NCBI GenBank assembly: GCA_021828935.1
Contig: JAJZCU010000030.1
Coordinates: 1-11,000, forward strand
Direction of reading: 5' to 3'
From: Planctomycetota bacterium
GTDB lineage: Bacteria; Planctomycetota; Phycisphaerae; WQYP01
DNA: 11,000 nt
Shown here: positions 1,504 through 11,000 of the stretch, in pieces
Position numbering within the stretch: position 1 is the stretch's first letter
Layout: each line of letters opens with the position of its first letter
Program-made: the position numbers and the translations under genes
The notes under the pieces: model-generated
Told to the model about the DNA's origin: nothing
Database searches by the model: none
What the model saw: the letters and a program-made list of their open reading frames with translations, nothing else

Positions 1504-2205
1504 TCAGGACGCGCCTTCAGACGTGATTGGCATGTACATGGACTGCAAGGCGATTCTTCCCGGCCCGGTGAAACGGTTCCATACCAACTGCCCGGCGCTG
1601 GCAAATATGCCGGATGTCAGCTTTTGCATCTTTGTCTCCATGCTCACGCTGGGATCTTTGTATATCCATCCACCCGGCTCGATGTCGATCTGCTCGCGCG
1701 GGCCAAGTTCAATTTCGAATACATTTCCATAGCCATGCAGCCATAGGATGCCTTCCTGGTGGCCCGTTGTGAAGGTATCGATAAAAAAACCGGTGCCGCT
1801 AAAAAGCATGTTGACCACGCCCTGCACGCGCCGGAAGGAGTAGTCCACGTTGCTGCTGGCGGCCAGGAATTGGTGCTCGCGCACATCCACCGCCTGGCCT
1901 GCCGTCAAGTGTAACGCGAAGACGTGCCCAGGGCCGTCCCGGCTGAAAGCGATTCGCCCCGGGCCTTTCGCTTCGGTCATGAAAATCGCCATGCCCGCGA
2001 TCATACGCTTAAAAACCCCTTTCATTGCCCTGATACCCACGTTTACGGCTGGATCTTTCCAGAGCAACACATGGTGCTCGAAGTAAATGCCCATGTCGCG
2101 CATTTCGATTTGCAGCACGGGCGTCAGTTCCCCCTCAATGTGGTAGGTGAGGCCTGCATAATTTTCATCGCGCAATTGAGTGCTTAATAAAGTGGGAACC
2201 GCCAT
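1504..2205 (-). CDS. AIM24 (TIGR00266/DUF124) family protein
   Basis: The 233-aa product is full length for the AIM24/TIGR00266 family. These are compact proteins of stacked beta-sandwich (double-stranded beta-helix) units, named after a yeast mitochondrial biogenesis factor; the bacterial role is unclear. Family features include KGPGRIAFSRDGPGHVFAL (about residues 80-98), a strand-rich middle with FSGTGFFIDTF (about 135-145), the block WLHGYGNVFEIELGPREQI (about 152-170) with EPGGWIYKD, and the closing WNRFTGPGRIALQSMYMP motif. There is no signal peptide or membrane helix, so a cytosolic location is likely. The start at 2205 is chosen because AAAGGA lies 9 bases upstream; an in-frame ATG at 2214 would overlap that site. 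The gene stands alone: upstream lies a spacer, and downstream is gene-poor DNA. It carries no sign of being part of the RHS island. Confidence 0.9.
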   Translation of the reverse strand: MAVPTLLSTQLRDENYAGLTYHIEGELTPVLQIEMRDMGIYFEHHVLLWKDPAVNVGIRAMKGVFKRMIAGMAIFMTEAKGPGRIAFSRDGPGHVFALHLTAGQAVDVREHQFLAASSNVDYSFRRVQGVVNMLFSGTGFFIDTFTTGHQEGILWLHGYGNVFEIELGPREQIDIEPGGWIYKDPSVSMETKMQKLTSGIFASAGQLVWNRFTGPGRIALQSMYMPITSEGAS

Positions 2206-2541
2206 GACAGCCATTCCTTTCGATTGCGTAACATTCAAATGTGGACGGCCGCATCGCATGCGCCAGCGCGCATAACATACCAAGCTTGTGGCGCCACGCC
2301 AAGCCCGCGGCCCTCACGAAAAGGGGTGTGGCAAAACTTTTGGGGGCCCGGTTTAATTGTTAGAAACGGCCTGAAGTTGCCAAAATCGTTCGGTTTGGCC
2401 GCTGTGGTCCAGGGCTTCCAAGGCCATGATCTCCTCACCGGTCCAAATCCGGCGATCCTGCGGCGCAATTGAATATTTAGGATGCGCATCACGCCACGAA
2501 ATGGGGGGTTTTAATGAGCGTGTTGGAAAGAGTTGGGGCAC
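2206..2541. other. Intergenic region upstream of the AIM24 gene
   Basis: Apart from the doubtful 62-codon minus-strand frame at 2353-2541, nothing here looks like a gene. The stretch must contain the promoter of the minus-strand AIM24 gene, but I see no confident -35/-10 pair. The ribosome binding site of that gene (AAAGGA on the minus strand) lies at its left edge, just above base 2214. No terminator hairpin with a T-tract was found for the island genes entering from the right. Confidence 0.4.
2353..2541 (-). CDS. Possible small protein or gene remnant, 62 aa
   Basis: This frame opens with GTG directly after the stop of the upstream membrane-protein gene on the same strand and ends at 2353. 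Its C-terminal half (RRIWTGEEIMALEALDHSG, then QTERFWQLQAVSNN) looks protein-like: acidic, helical, with two tryptophans. The N-terminal third is poor in coding character, and no ribosome binding site stands out. It could be a third gene of the RHS-linked transcript, a remnant of a longer gene, or chance. No family is recognised. Confidence 0.22.
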   Translation of the reverse strand: MPQLFPTRSLKPPISWRDAHPKYSIAPQDRRIWTGEEIMALEALDHSGQTERFWQLQAVSNN

Positions 2542-2844
2542 CTATCGATCTGGACCACGCGGCGGCGGTTGAGCGGGTGCGGATTTTTCGTCGGCGAAAC
2601 GTTTCCCATCCCGCGGTATCCTGTTTTTAGCGGTTCGCGACCATGCAAATCCGCTGACCCAGTAGAAGGCAACAAAGCTAAACGCGCCCTCAACCAGTGA
2701 CGCCAGCGTCAGGCCCAGGCCGCCCTTGAAGATCAATGGAGCCCCGGACGCCATGAAAATGGCGAACACGGTCGATTGAAAGAGACGATCTTTCCGCAAG
2801 TATCTTCGTCGAATACGGTACTTCTTTATGAACCCTCGCGCCAT
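2542..2844 (-). CDS. Small membrane protein after RHS fragment 2; candidate immunity protein
   Basis: The product is 100 aa. It has a strongly basic N-terminus (residues 1-20, with IKKYRIRRRYLRKDR), two hydrophobic segments at about 21-39 and 43-68, and a hydrophilic, proline-rich tail. By the positive-inside rule the N-terminus should be cytoplasmic. The start at 2844 is chosen because AAGAAGGA lies 9 bases upstream; ATGs at 2850 and 2853 would sit on that site. It begins 58 bases after the stop of the second RHS fragment, on the same strand. In polymorphic toxin systems that slot normally holds the cognate immunity gene, and a membrane protein there would fit a membrane-acting toxin. I recognise no immunity family, so the role is inferred from position alone. 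Confidence 0.55.
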   Translation of the reverse strand: MARGFIKKYRIRRRYLRKDRLFQSTVFAIFMASGAPLIFKGGLGLTLASLVEGAFSFVAFYWVSGFAWSRTAKNRIPRDGKRFADEKSAPAQPPPRGPDR

Positions 2845-2902
2845 ATGCATCATCCTTCTTCGCGCCCGCAGCCGAGGTGGGCCAAACACGGAGTCACACC
2901 GC

Positions 2903-3646
2903 TTACAGTTGTCCCCAAAGCCACTCTATCCCCCGCACGATCGGGTAGCCGACGGCGCCCCCAGCGCCGCCGATAACCCCGCCGGTGGCCGCGCCGAGAC
3001 CGATGCCGGGCAGATCCTCGGGTCCGCTCATAACACAGACCGTGGCAGCGCCGCCCGTCGCGCCATAGGCGCCCCCCTCAAGAATCACCTGCCCCCAGCG
3101 ATGAAAAAAATTGCCGCGGCTTGCGGAAGGCGCTGCGACCGTGCCATTCTTGTCGACGGCCTCCGCAGGTTGCCCCATGACGAATTGGTACGTGTTCCCC
3201 CCATTAATATACCCCGCCGGATCCTGTTCGATCCAGTTGCCCAGCGTCGGCGAGTAGTCGCGGTGGCGGAAATCGTACAAGCCGGTGATGGGGTCTTCGC
3301 GGCCGCAGTAGCCCCACCCATTCATGGTGGGGCCTGCTACGCGGTGGGAAGGATCCCGGATATTGGAACGTGCGCCGCGGTTTGCGTTGAGGACGGTGGG
3401 GACGCCGTAGGGGGTGTACACGTAACGCTGGACGACGCCCCAGGTGCCGGTGCCGGCTTTATATCCTATTAATGCAGTGACGTTGTAATTTGCGTCGAGC
3501 TGCGTGTAGATGCGGGCGTCGGGTTCGATGGCGCCCGCGCGGTAAGTGTCCCGCAATACCATCGCGTTGATGGTCGCCCACGCGGCAGCGTGGACATAGC
3601 ACCGTCCATTTATGGCGGTGCCCCGTTCCGCGTTTACGCGATCCAT
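2903..3646 (-). CDS. Truncated RHS-core protein with glycine-rich tip (fragment 2)
   Basis: RHS proteins form beta-shells of YD repeats enclosing a C-terminal toxin. This product carries only the end of the RHS core. Counting from the ATG at 3646, RHS similarity begins near residue 16 and includes MVLRD (29-33), YTPYG (77-81), DPITGLYDF (118-126), DYSPTLGNWIEQDP and AGYINGGNTY, ending at AVDKNG (163-168). The remaining tip of about 79 aa is Gly/Ala-rich with small-residue spacing like a glycine zipper (ATGGVIGGAGGAVG), then WLWGQL at the end; this suggests membrane insertion. The frame stays open to 3961, but the extra residues are Arg/Cys-rich and show no RHS similarity, so the true start is uncertain. 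A full RHS protein is usually over 1000 aa, so the N-terminal shell and any secretion domain are missing. It may be a silent cassette. Confidence 0.6.
   Translation of the reverse strand: MDRVNAERGTAINGRCYVHAAAWATINAMVLRDTYRAGAIEPDARIYTQLDANYNVTALIGYKAGTGTWGVVQRYVYTPYGVPTVLNANRGARSNIRDPSHRVAGPTMNGWGYCGREDPITGLYDFRHRDYSPTLGNWIEQDPAGYINGGNTYQFVMGQPAEAVDKNGTVAAPSASRGNFFHRWGQVILEGGAYGATGGAATVCVMSGPEDLPGIGLGAATGGVIGGAGGAVGYPIVRGIEWLWGQL
3181..3306. repeat. RHS core-end direct repeat, copy A
   Basis: This 126-base stretch encodes the conserved end of the RHS core in fragment 2. It matches 4931-5056 at a fixed offset of 1750 bases with 12 mismatches by my hand count, about 90% identity. Several mismatches are silent at the protein level. 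Identity falls away on the tip side, where the C-termini become unrelated. Such core-end homology is where RHS tips are exchanged by recombination. Confidence 0.85.
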
Positions 3647-4042
3647 CACGCCTCGCGAACACGCGAAACATTCTTTATTTTGATTGTGCGAATGCTCGTG
3701 GAGCACGAACGGAGCGTTTGCCGCCCTCCCTTGCCGCCGCGCGGCGGCTCGGCGACATCCGTCGCCGCAGCCGCGCCGGGAAGTGCGTTTATCAATTTTT
3801 TCGGCCAGGCACACCATGGGCACCCCCCCCGGTATTTCTCGAAATCTTACTGCCGCGCGTAACCGGCCGCAAATAAACAATTGCGGCATCGGCGGCCGCC
3901 GGCCCATCAGGGCCCGAAGTTTGGGCGCCGGCGTCGTCGTTTCCCTTTGCTCACGGTACAATCGCCGGGGTTATTCATAGATTTATCCCCTGACGCCACG
4001 TCGCGGGCCATCAGGTGTGCCGGTCAATGCCGCCTCCCGGCC
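3647..4042. other. Spacer between the two RHS modules
   Basis: Between the small membrane protein ending at 4043 and the ATG chosen for RHS fragment 2 I see no convincing gene. The minus-strand frame of fragment 2 is open up to 3961 but reads as Arg/Cys-rich sequence unlike RHS. Plus-strand frames here are similar in quality. RHS similarity begins sharply near base 3600, so this stretch is probably junction DNA left by the rearrangement that removed the 5' part of the gene. A run of G on the minus strand (about 3823-3830) could mimic a ribosome binding site for an ATG at 3817, but the product would not be recognisable. Confidence 0.4.
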
Positions 4043-4303
4043 TTAACGGACGCCCGACAGGACGACCAGCAGCACCGGAAACGCGGCGAATGCCGCGAAG
4101 CGCCCCTCCCGGACACGCCATGAGCACAATCCACCCGCGAATCCGAAACCACAGAGGCCAAGCGCGGGCCCGACGCTCATTCCGCGCAGCACCATATCCG
4201 CCAGCAGGGCAATACAGGATATTGCCCCGAGCGCTTGTCCGCCGCCTAGGTCTGGTATCCAGTCCTGCATAACCCACAAGACCCCGCGCATCCAACCGAG
4301 CAT
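4043..4303 (-). CDS. Small membrane protein after RHS gene 1; candidate immunity protein
   Basis: The product is 86 aa and mostly hydrophobic, with three probable membrane helices at about residues 23-39, 45-61 and 68-84. Short loops contain RGMS and RVREGR. The ATG at 4303 has a strong GGAGG ribosome binding site 7 bases upstream, lying in the 16-base gap after the RHS stop at 4320. This tight spacing implies translation from the same transcript as the RHS gene. The position directly downstream of an RHS tip is the usual immunity slot in polymorphic toxin loci. No known immunity family is recognised. An overlapping frame (4011-4295) on the same strand is Arg-rich and without a good start, so I prefer this one. 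Confidence 0.55.
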   Translation of the reverse strand: MLGWMRGVLWVMQDWIPDLGGGQALGAISCIALLADMVLRGMSVGPALGLCGFGFAGGLCSWRVREGRFAAFAAFPVLLVVLSGVR

Positions 4304-4319
4304 TCCTTAGCCTCCGTGG

Positions 4320-5828
4320 TCAGGGACAATTTTTGGCAATTAGCTTGAACTTGTACTTCAGCGGCCCCATGGTGTAGCCACCCTTGTAGCTGACCGTCCT
4401 TCTCGTGCCAATAGTGATACCCCCGTTTTTTCCGCCGATGTTGACGCCGAGGCCGCTCTTGATCGTGAAGGTTCCACCCACGTTAACGAGCATCCTGACC
4501 GTCACGGTTACCCAATGCTTCTTGGCGCCCTTATTATGAAATTTTGTTGTATAGGTCAAGCTCGTGTGCAGCATGCCGTCCTGCGAGTCGCCGGTGAGTT
4601 TAAGCCCCGTTCCGACCGAAATCCTGCCATTCTGCGACAGGTGGAAGGGCAACCTGAGATCCTGCCCTGCAGCGCGGCGGTGCTCCACAATGAACAGCCA
4701 GCTCAAACCCGGAAACTTGAACATCGCGCCGCTAATCACATGGACTCGGCTCTTATGCTCGACCACCGCGGTACCCGCCCATTTAAGATGGGCGTAAATG
4801 TTCCAGAACACCCCCTCCACGTAGTCCTTAACGGTTGCCTTCTTCGCCCACATGCGGTCTTTTCCGTGGGGGCTCACCCATTTCCATTTCGTGCCTGCAA
4901 AGTCCACCATGCCCGCCGGCCGTGAGGCCGCGAATTCGTACCTGTTCCCCCCATTCACATATCCCGCCGGATCTTGTTCGATCCAGTTGCCGAGCGTCGG
5001 CGAGTAGTCACGGTTTCTGAAATCGTACAAGCCGGTGATGGGGTCTTGGCGGCCGCCTTGGTGCAGGTATTGTGTGAGCGGAATCTGGCTGGCCGCCGTG
5101 GTCCAGTCGGCGTTGAGGACTGTCACCACGCCGTAGGGCGTGTAGATGTAACGTTGCGTGACCTGCCATGTGGTGCCGACGAGGCCTACGATGGCGGTGG
5201 TGTTGAAATTGGCGTCGTGCTGGTAGTAAATCCGCTGCCCGGGCTGTATCGTTCCGCTGCTGTAAGCGTCGCGCAGCACCATCGCATCAATGTACATCTG
5301 CGACCAGACATACTGGTGCGCGACATCCGTGCTTGCCGTGCCATTAACGCGCGTCTCAAGCACCTGCCAGTTATTTGAATAATAAAGGTATTTGACGGTG
5401 CCGGCGGCGACGCCGTTGCCGCCTTGGGGGTAGCTTTCGCTGATTCTGTAGCCAAGCGCGTTGTAGCTGTACGCGGCGATGGTTTGCCCGGCGGGATTTT
5501 GCACGGCAACCAGGCGATTCCACGCATCATAAATTAATTTATTGCCGTTCTGGTCGGTGGTCATGTTGCCGTTGGCATCGTACGTCGGCGTGGCCGACGT
5601 GCCGCTGATGCCGGTGATCTGGTTTTGATTATTAAAGCTACGGGTCTGGGCGGCGCCATTCGTGGTGGAACTGCTCCAATTGCCCAGGGCGTCCATGTTC
5701 CAGGTTTGGCTTTGCGTGGCGGCGGAACTGGTATCGAGCGTGGCGCCGTTGTTTCCGCTGGCGGAGCTGTTGGCGCAGTACAGTTTTGTCTGCGAGCGAT
5801 CCGCTCGCGGTCCGAAGAACCCTTCCAT
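4320..5828 (-). CDS. N-terminally truncated RHS-repeat protein with unknown beta-rich tip (RHS 1)
   Basis: The product is 502 aa from the ATG at 5828, which has AAGGGG 9 bases upstream; a GTG at 5882 is an alternative. RHS similarity begins near residue 20 (SSASGNNGATLDT) and runs through YD-type units YDANGNM (83), YDAWNRL (100) and YSYNALGYRI (120). It continues with MVLRD (183) and YTPYG (229) to the conserved core end DPITGLYDFRNRDYSP (262) and AGYVNGGNRYEF, closing near residue 313. The last roughly 189 residues are an unrelated tip. It starts with Trp/Lys-rich sequence (KWKWVSPHGKDRMW), has a hydrophobic patch (MFKFPGLSWLFIVE), and ends in alternating Thr/Val/Gly strands and a Cys-Pro terminus. 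Known RHS tips are toxins released inside the shell; this one is not a family I can name. The usual N-terminal shell is absent, so the gene is an orphan cassette or a 5'-deleted gene. A small membrane-protein gene follows after 16 bases. Confidence 0.75.
   Translation of the reverse strand: MEGFFGPRADRSQTKLYCANSSASGNNGATLDTSSAATQSQTWNMDALGNWSSSTTNGAAQTRSFNNQNQITGISGTSATPTYDANGNMTTDQNGNKLIYDAWNRLVAVQNPAGQTIAAYSYNALGYRISESYPQGGNGVAAGTVKYLYYSNNWQVLETRVNGTASTDVAHQYVWSQMYIDAMVLRDAYSSGTIQPGQRIYYQHDANFNTTAIVGLVGTTWQVTQRYIYTPYGVVTVLNADWTTAASQIPLTQYLHQGGRQDPITGLYDFRNRDYSPTLGNWIEQDPAGYVNGGNRYEFAASRPAGMVDFAGTKWKWVSPHGKDRMWAKKATVKDYVEGVFWNIYAHLKWAGTAVVEHKSRVHVISGAMFKFPGLSWLFIVEHRRAAGQDLRLPFHLSQNGRISVGTGLKLTGDSQDGMLHTSLTYTTKFHNKGAKKHWVTVTVRMLVNVGGTFTIKSGLGVNIGGKNGGITIGTRRTVSYKGGYTMGPLKYKFKLIAKNCP
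4931..5056. repeat. RHS core-end direct repeat, copy B
   Basis: This is the second copy of the core-end repeat, inside RHS gene 1 and in the same orientation as the copy at 3181-3306. A further, weaker stretch of similarity lies upstream in gene order (about 5105-5160 against 3380-3435), at a slightly different offset because the intervening segment differs in length. Recombination between the copies would delete one tip and one small membrane-protein gene together. Confidence 0.85.
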
Positions 5829-6069
5829 ACGCCGCGACCCCTTGTGCGATGCCTGGACAATCCTATTATGAAACTGCGACACGATATTGGCGGCGAAGGG
5901 CCAAGATGGACCTTGCCGAAGATGACTGAGGGAAATTTAACCGATGTTTTCGGACGTTGCAAGTGAAATACAGTAATTTTTGACAAAATAGGGGCGCCAA
6001 GCGGCTGGCGACAACGCCGTAAGCTGTTGCAGGATAAGGGTTGACGGAACTTTCAAGAAATTTCCCGGC

Positions 6070-6091
6070 GGCGGGATACTGGCGGGATACT
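6070..6091. repeat. Tandem 11-base repeat
   Basis: GGCGGGATACT occurs twice head to tail at 6070-6080 and 6081-6091. It lies in the spacer with no gene on it. Function is unknown; replication slippage is the simplest explanation. Confidence 0.7.
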
Positions 6092-6188
6092 GTGGCAGGC
6101 AAACGGCGAAAATAAATCGGATCCCCGCGGCGGTCCTCTCGGCCTGCGTCCTCGACGGTGCCCGCGCGGTTATTCTTCGCGGCGGGTC

Positions 6189-6256
6189 GTCGTCGTTTCA
6201 ATCTGTGGTAATCTGTGGGTGCCCTCTGGGCGATCTGTGGATAAAAGTCGTCGTTT
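6189..6256. repeat. Cluster of ATCTGTGG repeats flanked by GTCGTCGTTT
   Basis: ATCTGTGG appears at 6201-6208, 6211-6218 and 6233-6240. The cluster is bracketed by two copies of GTCGTCGTTT at 6189-6198 and 6247-6256. The overall composition resembles the short 'ATCTGTGGTAATCTGTGG' interspersed repeats I recall from Verrucomicrobia and related genomes; that link is from memory and unverified. No gene overlaps it. Confidence 0.55.
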
Positions 6257-6278
6257 ATCTGCGCCTGCAGCTTGGCTC

Positions 6279-6300
6279 GCCGGCATATTTATATGCCGGC
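6279..6300. repeat. Perfect inverted repeat with AT-rich centre
   Basis: GCCGGCATAT and ATATGCCGGC are perfect inverted copies separated by two bases, so the 22 bases can form a stem with a GC base and AT top. No T-tract follows on either strand, so it is not a standard intrinsic terminator. It could be a protein-binding palindrome or a repeat end; it lies 23 bases beyond the short-repeat cluster. Confidence 0.5.
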
Positions 6301-6606
6301 TAAGAAACACCGGTGGCCTGTGTTAATCGGCCGACGCACAATTCTCGGTGTAAAGCGGGCCGCTGAAACGATTGACGACGGCGGCAACGCGCTTAGGCGT
6401 TCGGGGCCGAACGGAACGCGCCAATGACCTTTTTCATTTTGACTCTCCGGGCTGCGGCGCGGTATCATGCGGAACGGCTCCGAAAGGCGATCATAGTCAT
6501 TTGCGAACCTAAAGATGATCCAATGAATGAAGGGGCCCCGCTGCCACGCGGGAGTTAGTTCGCGCCGGCTCGCTGAATCGCATTTCACGGGGACGAGCCG
6601 TCAACA

Positions 6607-6678: not shown

Positions 6679-9615
6679 ATGGGCAGGCAAAGAACTAATT
6701 GCGTGATTCTCGCGGTCCTTTGTGCGGCGGGGGGGCTTTTTGCCCATCCAATTCATGCGGCGATACAAACCGCGTCTTGGATCGGCGGCAACGGTGACTG
6801 GCTGGGTTCACCGGAGTTGTGGTCCCCCGCCAATCTGCCGAATAACACGGGTTCCTCGCAATATAATGTCGTCGTCTCAGCCCCGTCACCGAACCCCTAT
6901 TACGGCGGACGCTATGGGGTGACCTTTGGCGGCGCCGCGGAGAGCGCCGCGACGGTAACTATTAACAATTTGGTTATCAACAACAAGATGGCGGCCGTCG
7001 CGCAGTACGGCGGGACGATGGACCTGGGCGGGGCCGGGTCTCCGGGAAAACTCGCGATCGATGCCGGTTATTACTATATAAGCGGGGGATTGCTGGAAAA
7101 CGCGGCCGTGGCCACGGGAAGCGATGGCCTGTTCGTGGTAAATGGCGGGACGCTCAAGAACGTCACTGTTGACGGGCGAAATGCAGTAGCCGACTTTGGC
7201 GGACTGAACATTGCCAACACGGCTGCCGCTCCAGACCCGGTAAGCAATGAAGTAATATATTTTGGCGGCAGTAATACGCTGCTGTCGTTTTCCGATGCCG
7301 CGGGAACAGGTGGCGCCGCGATCGGGCAGACGTTGATAAACAGCACGATCTACGATAATGGATTCGAATCCACGCTGGACGCGGGGCAGAAGTTGACAAT
7401 CGGGGCCGGTTCAACGCTGAGCGTCAACGCTTTTGGGAGCTACAGCGCCAACGCCACGCCACTGCCCGCGACAATGACTGGCGGAAGCATTACAAACGAC
7501 GGCGCCATCAATGTCACGTTTCATAACGCCCCCGAATCGCTGGGCATGAATCAAATGGGCGACATCACCATCAATCCGAGCAATTTCGACAACCGCGGGG
7601 TAATTACCGTCCTGCCATTATGCAATCTGACAATTAGCGCGGCGAATTGGACCAACAGCGGGACAATTCAAGCGCTGCCGTCGCCAACACCGGGATACGG
7701 CAAATATTATTCCGAGTTAACTTTTGGGGGGGACTGGTCGAACTCCGGGGTCATTGCGTTGAATCATGACACGGGCTTGAGCCTCGGTGGGAATTTTAAA
7801 TCGTCAGATATCGGGCTGGCGCCCGGCGGCGGCGTCCTGGCCCCGAATGGGGCCGGCGTAGCCATTACGGGGACAATGGATAACACCGGCGATAGCATCG
7901 CATTTAACAGTACCACGGGCGGCTACGGTCTTGAGGGAACCATCGTGGGTGGAACGATTTCAACGATTGACCCCAAAACCGGCATGAACTACCTCGGCGA
8001 AGGGGGCCCCAACGGCGGCACATTAAGATCGGTAACGCTGGGCACCAATCTGGAGGCCCAATCCCTGACTGTCCAAAACACGCCGGGCAACGACGCCGGC
8101 TTAATGCCCAATGGCCATACGCTCATCGTGGATGGGTTTATTAATTTTCAGAATACGGCCGGCCCGGAAGTGTTCAACAATGGGGCGATTTCCGCGCCCT
8201 ACGGCGGCCAGATCAGCGGGACAACGTGGACCATCGGCCCGAACGCATCCGTTGATATGGCGCGTCCGCTATCAAACCAACCCGACAATTTCACGCTGCT
8301 GGGCAAAACTTCTCTTACCAACTATGCGCCCGTCACGGTGGGCCACATGAAGCTGTCGCTGGATAACCTGCAAATCGCCGCGGGCAACTTCACCAACCAC
8401 GGCCCCATCACCAGTGATGGAACGTTGGACATTAATGCATTTTCATGGACCAATACCAGCGCGATTACCATCAACAGTTATGGGGTTCTTTATACGTCCG
8501 GAAACTGGTCCAACACCGGCAGCATCACCGCGGCGCCGAACAGCCAGATATTTTTGGGCGGCACGTTTCACGCCTCGGATGTTGGATTGGCGCCCGGCGG
8601 CGGCACATTCACGCATCCCAGCATGATGCAGTTGGAAATCACCGGCACGATGGATTTGGGCGGCCAGACGGTTACTTTCGGGCCCAGCACCGGAAACTGG
8701 ATGCTCAATGGCGGTACAATTGCAAACGGCTCTCTTGAAATTGCCAAACAAACGTATCCGAACCTGTGGCTCACCGTCACCGGAAACACGCCCAGCACAC
8801 TGGAAAATGTCAAAGTCATTGGTAATTGGAGTCTGGGCGGAACCTATTCCACGTTGAACATCGTCAACACCGGGTCGACCAGCGATGTATTGGACCTCAA
8901 TGGCCAAACCATAACCATCAATGGCAGTTCGGTCGCGCTGGCCCTGGGCACAAAGGATTTCGGCTTGCAGTACGATGGCGCGACAATATCCAATGGCAAT
9001 ATCACCATTGATGGCGGGAATCAAATCACCACGCCAACCGCACTGACCATTGACCCCGGCGCCCAGATCACCGCCGACACCGGCCAAAATTCATCCGCGA
9101 CAATCCAAGCCGCTTCCATCAATTTACTGGGTAGCATCAGGGCAATTAGTAATTCCACGCTTTATATTGATCCGTCCGGCATGACCGTTGGCGGTACATT
9201 GGAAGCCGATCCCTCAAGCATCATCGCTGTAGAGACCAATTTAGCGCTGGCCAGCCGCGGAAATTTTACCGTTGGCCTCAACAGCGACCAAATCGCAGGG
9301 TTGGAAATTGGGGGAAACCTGACGCTGGCCTCAGGCAGCGTCTTGAATATTCTCCCCGGCACGGGTTTGCTGGGCGGCCACTGGTATAAGTTAATCAGTT
9401 ATAGCGGAGCGTTGTCAGGGACATTCAGTTCCGTTACGCCAGGATACCAATTAAATTATTCCGCCGCTGGCGAGATTCTTGCCACGCCCGTCCCCGAGGC
9501 GCCCACGCTGGCCCTGCTTTGCCTGGCGATTCCGCTGCTATCGTTTGCGGGCCGGAAGCGAAGGCATTTGGCGGTGATGGAGCCGGGTCGACGCATTCGA
9601 CGGCGCCCCGAATAA
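6679..9615 (+). CDS. Large exported repetitive protein with PEP-CTERM-type sorting signal
   Basis: The 978-aa product starts at the ATG at 6679 with GGAGAAGG 6 bases upstream. Residues 1-28 form a Sec signal peptide (basic start, VILAVLCAAGGLFA core, cleavage after HAA). The mature start SWIGGNGDWLGSPELWSPA resembles the Trp/Gly opening of autotransporter-type and PEP-CTERM beta-helix proteins. The body is rich in Asn, Thr, Gly and Ser, with many short strands around WTNSGTI, WSNTGSI and ITGTMD units, suggesting a right-handed beta-helix. A longer unit is duplicated: SSDIGLAPGGG at about 375 and ASDVGLAPGGG at about 632. Residues 938-963 are the sorting signal: VPEAP, a hydrophobic helix (TLALLCLAIPLLSFAG) and RKRRH. 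Such signals are cut by exosortase, placing the protein at the envelope or in exopolysaccharide. The motif is PEA-P rather than the usual PEP, and about 15 extra basic residues follow. The gene stands alone; its ligand or role is unknown. Confidence 0.85.
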   Translation: MGRQRTNCVILAVLCAAGGLFAHPIHAAIQTASWIGGNGDWLGSPELWSPANLPNNTGSSQYNVVVSAPSPNPYYGGRYGVTFGGAAESAATVTINNLVINNKMAAVAQYGGTMDLGGAGSPGKLAIDAGYYYISGGLLENAAVATGSDGLFVVNGGTLKNVTVDGRNAVADFGGLNIANTAAAPDPVSNEVIYFGGSNTLLSFSDAAGTGGAAIGQTLINSTIYDNGFESTLDAGQKLTIGAGSTLSVNAFGSYSANATPLPATMTGGSITNDGAINVTFHNAPESLGMNQMGDITINPSNFDNRGVITVLPLCNLTISAANWTNSGTIQALPSPTPGYGKYYSELTFGGDWSNSGVIALNHDTGLSLGGNFKSSDIGLAPGGGVLAPNGAGVAITGTMDNTGDSIAFNSTTGGYGLEGTIVGGTISTIDPKTGMNYLGEGGPNGGTLRSVTLGTNLEAQSLTVQNTPGNDAGLMPNGHTLIVDGFINFQNTAGPEVFNNGAISAPYGGQISGTTWTIGPNASVDMARPLSNQPDNFTLLGKTSLTNYAPVTVGHMKLSLDNLQIAAGNFTNHGPITSDGTLDINAFSWTNTSAITINSYGVLYTSGNWSNTGSITAAPNSQIFLGGTFHASDVGLAPGGGTFTHPSMMQLEITGTMDLGGQTVTFGPSTGNWMLNGGTIANGSLEIAKQTYPNLWLTVTGNTPSTLENVKVIGNWSLGGTYSTLNIVNTGSTSDVLDLNGQTITINGSSVALALGTKDFGLQYDGATISNGNITIDGGNQITTPTALTIDPGAQITADTGQNSSATIQAASINLLGSIRAISNSTLYIDPSGMTVGGTLEADPSSIIAVETNLALASRGNFTVGLNSDQIAGLEIGGNLTLASGSVLNILPGTGLLGGHWYKLISYSGALSGTFSSVTPGYQLNYSAAGEILATPVPEAPTLALLCLAIPLLSFAGRKRRHLAVMEPGRRIRRRPE

Positions 9616-9830: not shown

Positions 9831-10703
9831 TCATCGCTTAGCGTCCACCAATATCACCACCTGGTGGACGCGTTGCACGTCCACCCGCGGCTTAATATGG
9901 ACCACCCACCGAAGTTGATGAATCTGGGATGATCGTACCACCGTAACCTGCCCGATTACGGCGCCCCGCACCGAGGCCGGCCAGCCGGTGTCATTGAGGG
10001 CTACCAAATCCCCCTTGCGCGGCGCGATTGACTGGACCGAATCCGGCAGTTCACACCGCATCTGGCCATGGCCCGTGCCCACCACCATGCATAGGCGCGC
10101 CACCGGCAGTTCCCCGGTGCGCGTGGGCCGCACGATCATGGCCATGACTTTCATGCGCGGGCTGGACACCAACTGCGCCGTGCAGGTCTTTGGCCCCGCG
10201 CTGATGATGCGCCCCACCACCGCGGCGTGGGCCAGCACAACATCGCCCCGGCGGATGCCTTTTGAATCCATGGTTCCGCGGTCCAGCACACAGGATCCGC
10301 TGCCGGCGCTGGAAAAGCCGATGATATCGGCGGCGCGCAGGCTTTGTCCGGTGATGCCCGGAAAGGTGCGGTGGACAAGTCTGGCGTTTTTCAAAATGGC
10401 CTGAAGTCGCGCGATGCGGGCCAGCAGCATGGTTTTTATATTCACCCAGCGCCGCCGCAGCCGCCGCCGGCGCGCGGGCGAACGCGCCGTGGTGAAATGA
10501 TGCCAAAGATCGTTCACGCCCGATTGCGCCCGCGTACACAAGGCCGAAGCCGGGGTAAGCAGCAGATGCATGGCCTGGGCGGAAACATGGCGCGGGCCAT
10601 TTTCCAGGGCGGGGCGGAAATAATTGATAAGGAGGCTCAGGAAGGCGCCGGCCACGAGCAACAGAAACCAGCGCTGCGGCGTCATGCGTTGCAAGAATGG
10701 CAT
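9831..10703 (-). CDS. mreC: Rod shape-determining protein MreC
   Basis: MreC is an inner-membrane protein with a periplasmic domain that links MreB filaments to the elongation peptidoglycan synthases. The 290-aa product is of normal length. It has one N-terminal membrane helix (about residues 11-29), a helical and partly coiled segment (about 45-107), then two beta-barrel lobes. The lobes carry the family's typical wording: VLDRGTMDSKGIRRGDVVL (about 139-157), then VVGRIISAGP and the segment with AQLVSSPRMKVMAMI, and later GDLVALNDTG and GAVIGQVTVV. A notably basic run (RRRRLRRRW, about 78-86) interrupts the coiled region. The start at 10703 has GGAA 5 bases upstream. It follows mreB by 75 bases on the same strand, the classic order. 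No mreD frame follows; downstream is a convergent surface-protein gene. Confidence 0.88.
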   Translation of the reverse strand: MPFLQRMTPQRWFLLLVAGAFLSLLINYFRPALENGPRHVSAQAMHLLLTPASALCTRAQSGVNDLWHHFTTARSPARRRRLRRRWVNIKTMLLARIARLQAILKNARLVHRTFPGITGQSLRAADIIGFSSAGSGSCVLDRGTMDSKGIRRGDVVLAHAAVVGRIISAGPKTCTAQLVSSPRMKVMAMIVRPTRTGELPVARLCMVVGTGHGQMRCELPDSVQSIAPRKGDLVALNDTGWPASVRGAVIGQVTVVRSSQIHQLRWVVHIKPRVDVQRVHQVVILVDAKR

Positions 10704-10778: not shown

Positions 10779-11000
10779 TTACATATCATCCTGCCCGGAT
10801 TCCATGGTGTCCTTCCACAGTTCCAGATTTTCCAGAAACACGCTGGTGCCGCGGGCCACGCACGTCAGCGGATCATCGGCAATGCGCACCGGCAGCCCCG
10901 TGGCTTGGTGGATTATTCTATCGACCCCGCGCAACAGCGCCCCGCCCCCGGCCAAACAAATGCCATTTTCCACCAAGTCCGCCAGGATGATATGTAAGCA
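10779..11000 (-). CDS. mreB: Rod shape-determining protein MreB, C-terminal fragment
   Basis: The frame is open from the window edge and ends at the TAA at 10779-10781, giving the last 73 residues of the protein. The segment reads GICLAGGGALLRGVDRII, then TGLPVRIADDPLTCVARGT and a short tail. This is the highly conserved end of MreB, including the Gly-rich adenosine-binding loop of the actin fold and the ADDPL...VARGTG-type motif (the last Gly is Ser here). MreB forms membrane-bound actin-like filaments that guide lateral wall synthesis. The final DTMESGQDDM tail is acidic. mreC follows after 75 bases, so both are probably transcribed together. Confidence 0.92.
   Translation of the reverse strand, partial: CLHIILADLVENGICLAGGGALLRGVDRIIHQATGLPVRIADDPLTCVARGTSVFLENLELWKDTMESGQDDM

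Follow-up and report, generated by a model that had tools for sequence, protein, structure and literature searches.

Two tandem cassettes of the RHS family were analysed in an 11,000-nucleotide (nt) planctomycete window, which is the whole stretch of DNA under study and an entire contig (JAJZCU010000030.1; G000:C341) of a genome that is 53.7% complete. Its assignment to the planctomycetes follows the best named matches of the RHS core. Each cassette consists of an RHS core fragment that ends in a variable C-terminal tip and of a small downstream protein, here called the partner. The order on the minus strand is RHS fragment A with tip A, partner A of 86 amino acids (aa), RHS fragment B with tip B, and partner B of 100 aa. 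An earlier sequence-only reading of the window had proposed this order and had taken it for the arrangement of orphan polymorphic toxins with cognate immunity genes, and the open reading frames (ORFs) agree with it. The core ends are near-identical as described there, with 90% identity over the last 126 nt of cores A and B, and the longer aligned stretch (residues 187-332) exhibits 62% protein identity. The two tips are unrelated, and so are the two partners. The features are listed in Table 1, and handles with G, C, and L denote genomes, contigs, and loci.

Table 1 Features of the two RHS cassettes and their leaders in the window.
Feature	Position	Strand	Remarks
Leader A, repeat-bearing, upstream of cassette A	5829..6276	-	common to cassettes on C213 and C153; present also without RHS match
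Core A, truncated RHS core	4893..5828	-	TIGR03696; ATG 5828; frame open back to 5936
Tip A, 190 aa plus stop	4320..4892	-	no relative found
Partner A, 86 aa, putative immunity protein against tip A; 2-3 predicted membrane helices	4043..4303	-	Shine-Dalgarno site GGAGG
Leader B, upstream of cassette B	3647..3931	-	partly common to C195 and C386
Core B, short RHS core fragment	3143..3646	-	TIGR03696; likely ATG 3646, start chosen from sequence
Tip B, 79 aa plus stop, glycine-zipper-like, ending VGYPIVRGIEWLWGQL	2903..3142	-	two intact relatives
Partner B, 100 aa, putative immunity protein against tip B; basic N-terminus and two predicted membrane helices	2542..2844	-	Shine-Dalgarno site AAGGA

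The RHS core domain TIGR03696 was identified in both fragments (E-value, E, of 3e-14 for A and 1e-13 for B). RHS frame A extends from 5882/5828 to 4320 and encodes 502 aa counted from ATG 5828, while RHS frame B ends at 2903. Both fragments have a possible start codon. Both also lack the N-terminal delivery region, as the proteins have 502-520 aa (A) and about 247 aa (B), tip included, compared with 3192-4308 aa for the longest RHS frames in relatives. Partner A starts 16 nt beyond the stop of tip A with a ribosome site in front. The likelier start of partner B is ATG 2844 (100 aa), which is preceded by its ribosome site, and GTG 2889 (115 aa) is possible. The database proteins P0001-P0003 are the 502-, 86-, and 100-aa versions with the same starts, and they are found on two contigs, the longest of which has 22,106 bases. 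Membrane helices were predicted with the Kyte-Doolittle scale at cut-offs of 1.5 or 1.6, and a laxer setting combined a shorter window with a lower cut-off. Partner A had been described as a three-helix protein, of which two helices are predicted and the third appears only at the laxer setting. Partner B, described as a two-helix protein, has two helices at cut-off 1.5 but one at 1.6.

The tips and partners had not been recognised by the sequence-only reading, and none could be assigned to a described family from the libraries searched. No match to the tips was found in Pfam, NCBIfam or PADLOC (one Pfam match at E 0.2 for tip A), and partner B exhibits only a weak match to NCBIfam PspM (E 0.019, 14.9 bits where the cut-off is 80). 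Rfam gave nothing over the window at gathering scores. The kind of system is known, and the tips appear to be new.

The cassette architecture recurs in the own genome and across the family. The RHS protein of cassette A has 22 matches in its own genome, the two of the window included, although several of these are pieces of one copy. Eleven complete core ends with tips are found there (again with those of the window), and their tips are all mutually unrelated at E 1e-3. The core is present at E<=1e-20 in 18 of the 28 family genomes, own included. The 83 core ends that were examined come from own-genome and family loci and represent part of the family core matches. Two or more cassettes stand in tandem on 24 of 51 locus-strands. 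The long frames mentioned above are six in number and belong to G018, G002, G027, and G017. Orphan cassettes behind a full-length rhs gene were seen in G018 on contigs C53 and C57, where C53 carries an RHS frame of 3290 aa followed by two orphan cassettes. The orphan polymorphic-toxin arrangement is well supported by this context because there are more units of core, tip, and partner, because tandem arrays stand behind very long frames, and because tips often keep their partners. One of three long frames examined has a LEPR-XLL match just under the cut-off (16.6 vs 17). Another long frame, one of two proteins scanned, carries DUF1349 and fn3 domains above their cut-offs.

The co-inheritance of tips and partners was counted by hand in 78 cassettes. 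These remained from the 83 core ends after the removal of two that run into contig ends, two that lack a partner ORF, and one whose tip is shorter than 50 aa. The partner was defined as the longest ATG/GTG ORF of at least 60 aa that starts -50 to +250 nt from the tip stop. The partners in the window were set by hand (ATG 4303 and ATG 2844), as the rule had chosen a helix-free ORF of 88 aa for cassette A. Related tips occur in 18 of 3003 pairs, and related partners accompany 10 of these 18, compared with 63 of the 3003 pairs overall. The ratio is 8/13 without five tip pairs that match over just 19-22 residues, and 5/10 when three pairs that are identical copies in two genomes are left out too. 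The sequence-only reading had suggested looking for constant pairing of a tip with its small protein; related tips often, but not always, keep related partners (8/13). Tip and partner at L188 (G017:C104) and L191 (G002:C154) are 100% identical across genomes of two genera, which may reflect recent transfer or a binning error. Two partner families are common to several tips. One is a repeat protein family, which we take to be Sel1-like, that is the partner of several unrelated tips (L181, L183, L191, L199, L200, and L206). The other has about 330-360 aa and is found behind several mostly short tips.

Predicted membrane helices are in excess among the partners. The partner counts cover 75 distinct partners from loci L168-L207 (family) and L101-L113 (own) at the Kyte-Doolittle cut-off of 1.6. 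A predicted helix is present in 55 of these 75 partners, against 20 of the 106 ORFs that follow non-RHS ORFs (Fisher 1.5e-13), and in 53 of 73 when the two partners of the window are subtracted. When only proteins of 80-600 aa from the same loci are counted, the helix is present in 55/73 partners and 49/262 non-RHS ORFs (4e-19). The excess is present in each of three length classes, and 8 of 11 partners in the own genome bear a helix. The size and meaning of this excess are uncertain, because the control ORFs were picked by a mechanical rule, so that non-genes are among them, and because a lone helix could belong to a signal peptide.

The sequence-only reading also held both tips to be membrane-acting. 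For tip B there are grounds for this, namely its glycine-zipper-like pattern, a hairpin model of moderate confidence, and a small hydrophobic neighbour in all three intact loci. The alignment reveals a GxxxG-type pattern in the glycine-rich tip B, which has the conserved end GYP[IV]xxGxxW. Its two intact relatives (G018:C53 and G010:C35) were spotted by eye, as BLAST missed both, and each is the C-terminus of an RHS frame. A three-member profile identified these three loci as the only intact ones in 397 class and 392 phylum genomes, two draws that partly overlap and in which some genomes were scored on 15 of their candidates. The profile also has a weak match in G157 that contains a stop (E 3e-4). 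When 48,450 frames from the collected loci were scanned, the one addition was a weak match (E 0.002) in the next RHS tip of G018:C53. All three intact members end 5-6 residues past the tryptophan of the GYP..G..W motif. The best of five AlphaFold2 models of the three-row alignment is a two-helix hairpin (predicted local distance difference test score, pLDDT, of 69 and predicted template modelling score, pTM, of 0.45). A small hydrophobic protein is located downstream of tip B in all three intact loci, and the neighbour in G018:C53 has two helices at cut-off 1.5. No intact relative of tip B was found without such a neighbour, yet only two intact relatives were identified.

A protein at G018:C86 resembles partner B with a score of 72, which was reached in none of 5000 hydropathy-keeping shuffles (best 53). 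It occurs without an RHS core, with no core match below E 0.18; the sequence-only reading had named homologues of the small proteins in unrelated settings as counter-evidence. The protein is located behind Sel1-repeat-like genes, a label that is our assumption. It adjoins glycine-rich pieces in several frames (one matches tip B at E 0.024), which may be a decayed tip B. The protein at G018:C86 also matches membrane proteins of G019 (L260, C62) and G003 (L262, C74) at E 2.9e-4 and 0.003, in both cases with 0 of 3000 shuffles as high. Partner B itself was equalled against these two proteins by 74 and 26 of 3000 shuffles. They stand beside a gene that we take to be ClpX-like, and they may represent the origin of such hairpins or a common hydrophobic pattern. 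Hydrophobic hairpins pass the shuffle test easily, so the C86 protein has medium weight at most as a relative of partner B. Further weak matches of partner B are located at L132, L134, and L135.

For tip A, action at the envelope is a possibility whose single ground is the membrane nature of its partner. The sole match of tip A among 5.77 billion proteins was itself, and partner A likewise found only itself in this search, which depends on shared 5-residue words. Tip A was found only in its own genome among 101 genomes (own and 100 related), and it matched no Protein Data Bank (PDB) chain at E<=1 by sequence. A single-sequence AlphaFold2 model of tip A has a pLDDT of 33.5, and its fold is uninformative. 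Fifteen weak matches of partner A (E 1e-4 to 9e-3) were obtained in seven other genomes, of which nine loci were examined and none was accepted as a relative. Six of them (L116, L117, L123, L124, L127, and L128) are long frames with a segment that we regard as pilin-like. L121 is a hydrophobic frame of 92 aa with no RHS context seen, and L118 and L119, likewise in unrelated frames, were not taken as relatives either.

The two cores differ in their ratio of nonsynonymous to synonymous substitution rates (dN/dS), and these values are rough as dS is 0.6-1.2. For core A, whose PDB relatives are Rhs, TccC, YenC2, and, weakly, Tse5, comparison with seven own-genome copies gave a dN/dS of 0.08-0.17, and the ratio was 0.34 with C149 and 0.40 with core B. 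Purifying selection thus acts on core A. Core B has a dN/dS of 0.27-0.44 against nine copies. A palindromic segment, GCCCCACC...GGTGGGGC, was seen by eye in frame in core B at about 3308-3335 (-). It lies where other copies have a conserved stretch, and C195 has identical residues at this place.

The best-described orphan toxin-immunity cassettes are those of proteobacteria. Orphan rhs-CT/rhsI and cdiA-CT/cdiI modules are reported from Dickeya and from E. coli EC93 and EC869 (Poole et al., PMC3150448). Cassettes A and B resemble the rhs-CT/rhsI modules in their truncated core, variable tip, and adjacent small gene, and relatives of the window resemble them in their tandem arrays behind a very long gene. 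However, the window cassettes are from what is apparently another phylum, and they differ in their possible start codons, their unmatched tips and partners, and their degenerate cleavage motif. Membrane toxins with comparable partners are known from other delivery systems. The CdiI proteins of ionophores in contact-dependent growth inhibition (CDI) have 72-100 residues, are predicted two-helix hairpins, and diverge to about 30% identity (PMC11630599). Partner B with its 100 aa and two predicted helices and tip B with its glycine-zipper-like pattern are similar to this description. The CDI ionophores are delivered by CdiA and have a five-helix bundle and an entry domain (PMC11630599), whereas tip B has about 70-79 residues and a two-helix model. 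EsxX is a glycine-zipper depolarising toxin with the polytopic membrane immunity ExiCD and orphan immunity genes (PMC12744356). By description, cassette B would share the combination of a glycine-zipper membrane toxin and polytopic membrane immunity. EsxX differs in its type VII LXG delivery in Staphylococcus and in a further, soluble immunity pair, ExiAB (PMC12744356). Tse5 is a pore former of the Rhs type, and its immunity protein Tsi5 has two predicted transmembrane regions (PMC9637101). The RHS shell, a C-terminal tip proposed to be membrane-active, and a putative immunity protein with two predicted helices are the likeness here, but Tse5-CT has 149 residues and is delivered by the type VI secretion system (PMC9637101). 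Planctomycetes were named among the carriers of polymorphic toxins (Zhang et al., 2012; PMC3482391), and therefore the general system is already known in the phylum. Nothing matching the present tips was found in the available part of that paper (PMC3482391). By their titles, none of the matches listed on planctomycete RHS/YD repeats describes planctomycete orphan RHS cassettes, and a full-text literature search on orphan rhs immunity in planctomycetes met only work on Agrobacterium.

We consider it likely that cassettes A and B are two displaced RHS toxin-immunity cassettes in tandem, with membrane depolarisation proposed for tip B and action at the envelope for tip A. Each cassette would provide part of the RHS core as a region of homology, a variable C-terminal tip, and a gene that protects against that tip. 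Since the N-terminal export part is absent, each cassette by itself would be a store. We infer that the partner can be made and can confer immunity, and that recombination within the shared core can transfer the tip to a full-length RHS gene. As tip B is glycine-zipper-like, membrane depolarisation would be its likely action by analogy with the CDI ionophores, EsxX, and Tse5. Its helical hairpin would insert into the inner membrane of the target, the membrane potential would be lost, and the two-helix partner B would block tip B within the membrane. Tip A is proposed to act at the envelope and to be blocked by its two- or three-helix partner.

Several findings weigh against this reading. The 11-kb contig has no full-length RHS gene. 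The core-tip border, where PxxxxDPxGL is expected, reads RPAGMVDFAGT in A and QPAEAVDKNGT in B, so the motif is degenerate in both. The absence of DPxG is common in this RHS family, because only 39 of the 83 core ends have a last DPxG form by regular expression. Core B shows relaxed selection and cassette B may be decaying, with partner B possibly still useful. The remaining four models of tip B have a pLDDT of 47-64. The neighbour of the tip B relative in G018:C53 is located 235 nt downstream of the tip, and the second helix of the G010 neighbour appears only with a shorter window and a lower cut-off. The similarity of partner B to one of these neighbours is weak (16/1000 shuffles; 3/74 other partners as high) and to the other absent (297/1000 shuffles; 48/74 partners as high), and the two neighbours are mutually unrelated (263/1000 shuffles). 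The match of the C86 protein in G019 (E 2.9e-4) outranks its match to partner B (E 0.002), and its resemblance to proteins beside the ClpX-like gene counts against specificity. Lastly, a relation between partners is undetectable in 5 of the 13 related tip pairs. Such partners can nevertheless be alike in type, as with those of the C110 tip and its relative L197_2437, each of which has three predicted helices.

The absent delivery part, the degenerate cleavage motifs, and the dN/dS of core B would also fit decaying RHS debris from recombination and repeat insertion, in which the tips and partners no longer work. Leader A also stands before an RHS remnant on C70 that is diverged and looks broken, and the match of the C195 relative of cassette B is split between two frames. 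We regard this explanation as quite unlikely, with the low dN/dS of core A against seven copies, the good ribosome sites on both partners, and the open frames of about 500 and 245 aa standing against it. Orphan modules are also functional elsewhere (PMC3150448).

Tip B might instead be a membrane-passage (pre-toxin) segment that has lost its catalytic end and is not the toxin itself. Glycine zippers can serve translocation (PMC10240207). In the C149 tip of the own genome (L109, about 830-1360), a glycine-rich stretch precedes a further domain, a His/Asp-rich end, with no match to a tip in Pfam or NCBIfam. We assume that this end recalls the polymorphic toxin type 24 domain. The common stop of all three intact members shortly past the motif tryptophan indicates that the end of tip B is itself conserved, and each member has a small hydrophobic neighbour, so we consider a pre-toxin segment unlikely. 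The partners could also be accessory or anchoring membrane proteins of non-toxin surface RHS proteins. A predicted helix in most partners, the two partner families common to several unrelated tips, and the fn3 and DUF1349 domains on one very long frame are consistent with such a role. However, the tips and partners are hypervariable compared with the conserved core, and related tips often keep related partners, as toxin and immunity predict. An accessory role is thus rather improbable in our view.

The surroundings of the cassettes were also recorded. A dispersed repeat with CCACAGAT units spans 5829-6320 (-), and it has at least 29 matches in the genome, own place included, among the 40 of 55 candidates that were scored. 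Leader A marks the 5' junction common to C213 and C153. Its role as a cassette-specific control element was rejected, as the repeat also occurs on C227 and C98, which gave no RHS match. The cassettes are flanked on both sides by an AIM24-family protein at 1507-2283 (-) and by MreC at 9834-10703 (-) and the end of MreB at 10779-11000 (-). A repetitive protein of 978 aa without a Pfam match is located at 6679-9612 (+), and its C-terminal end presumably resembles a PEP-CTERM anchor.

The findings in this work place the storage layout of orphan cassettes in what appears to be an uncultured planctomycete family as well, with tips that the libraries tested do not recognise. If the excess of membrane helices among the partners stands, it suggests an RHS lineage that is directed mainly at the envelope and specialises in envelope-directed weapons. 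The tip B family would represent a membrane toxin of very small size attached to an RHS shell, which is simple to test. On a wider and more tentative reading, about which we are somewhat doubtful, this planctomycete family would hold a large and mostly undescribed arsenal of RHS tips that is aimed chiefly at the envelope, with giant RHS surface proteins as carriers and tandem orphan cassettes as the store, and with tip B as a minimal glycine-zipper toxin of about 70 residues.

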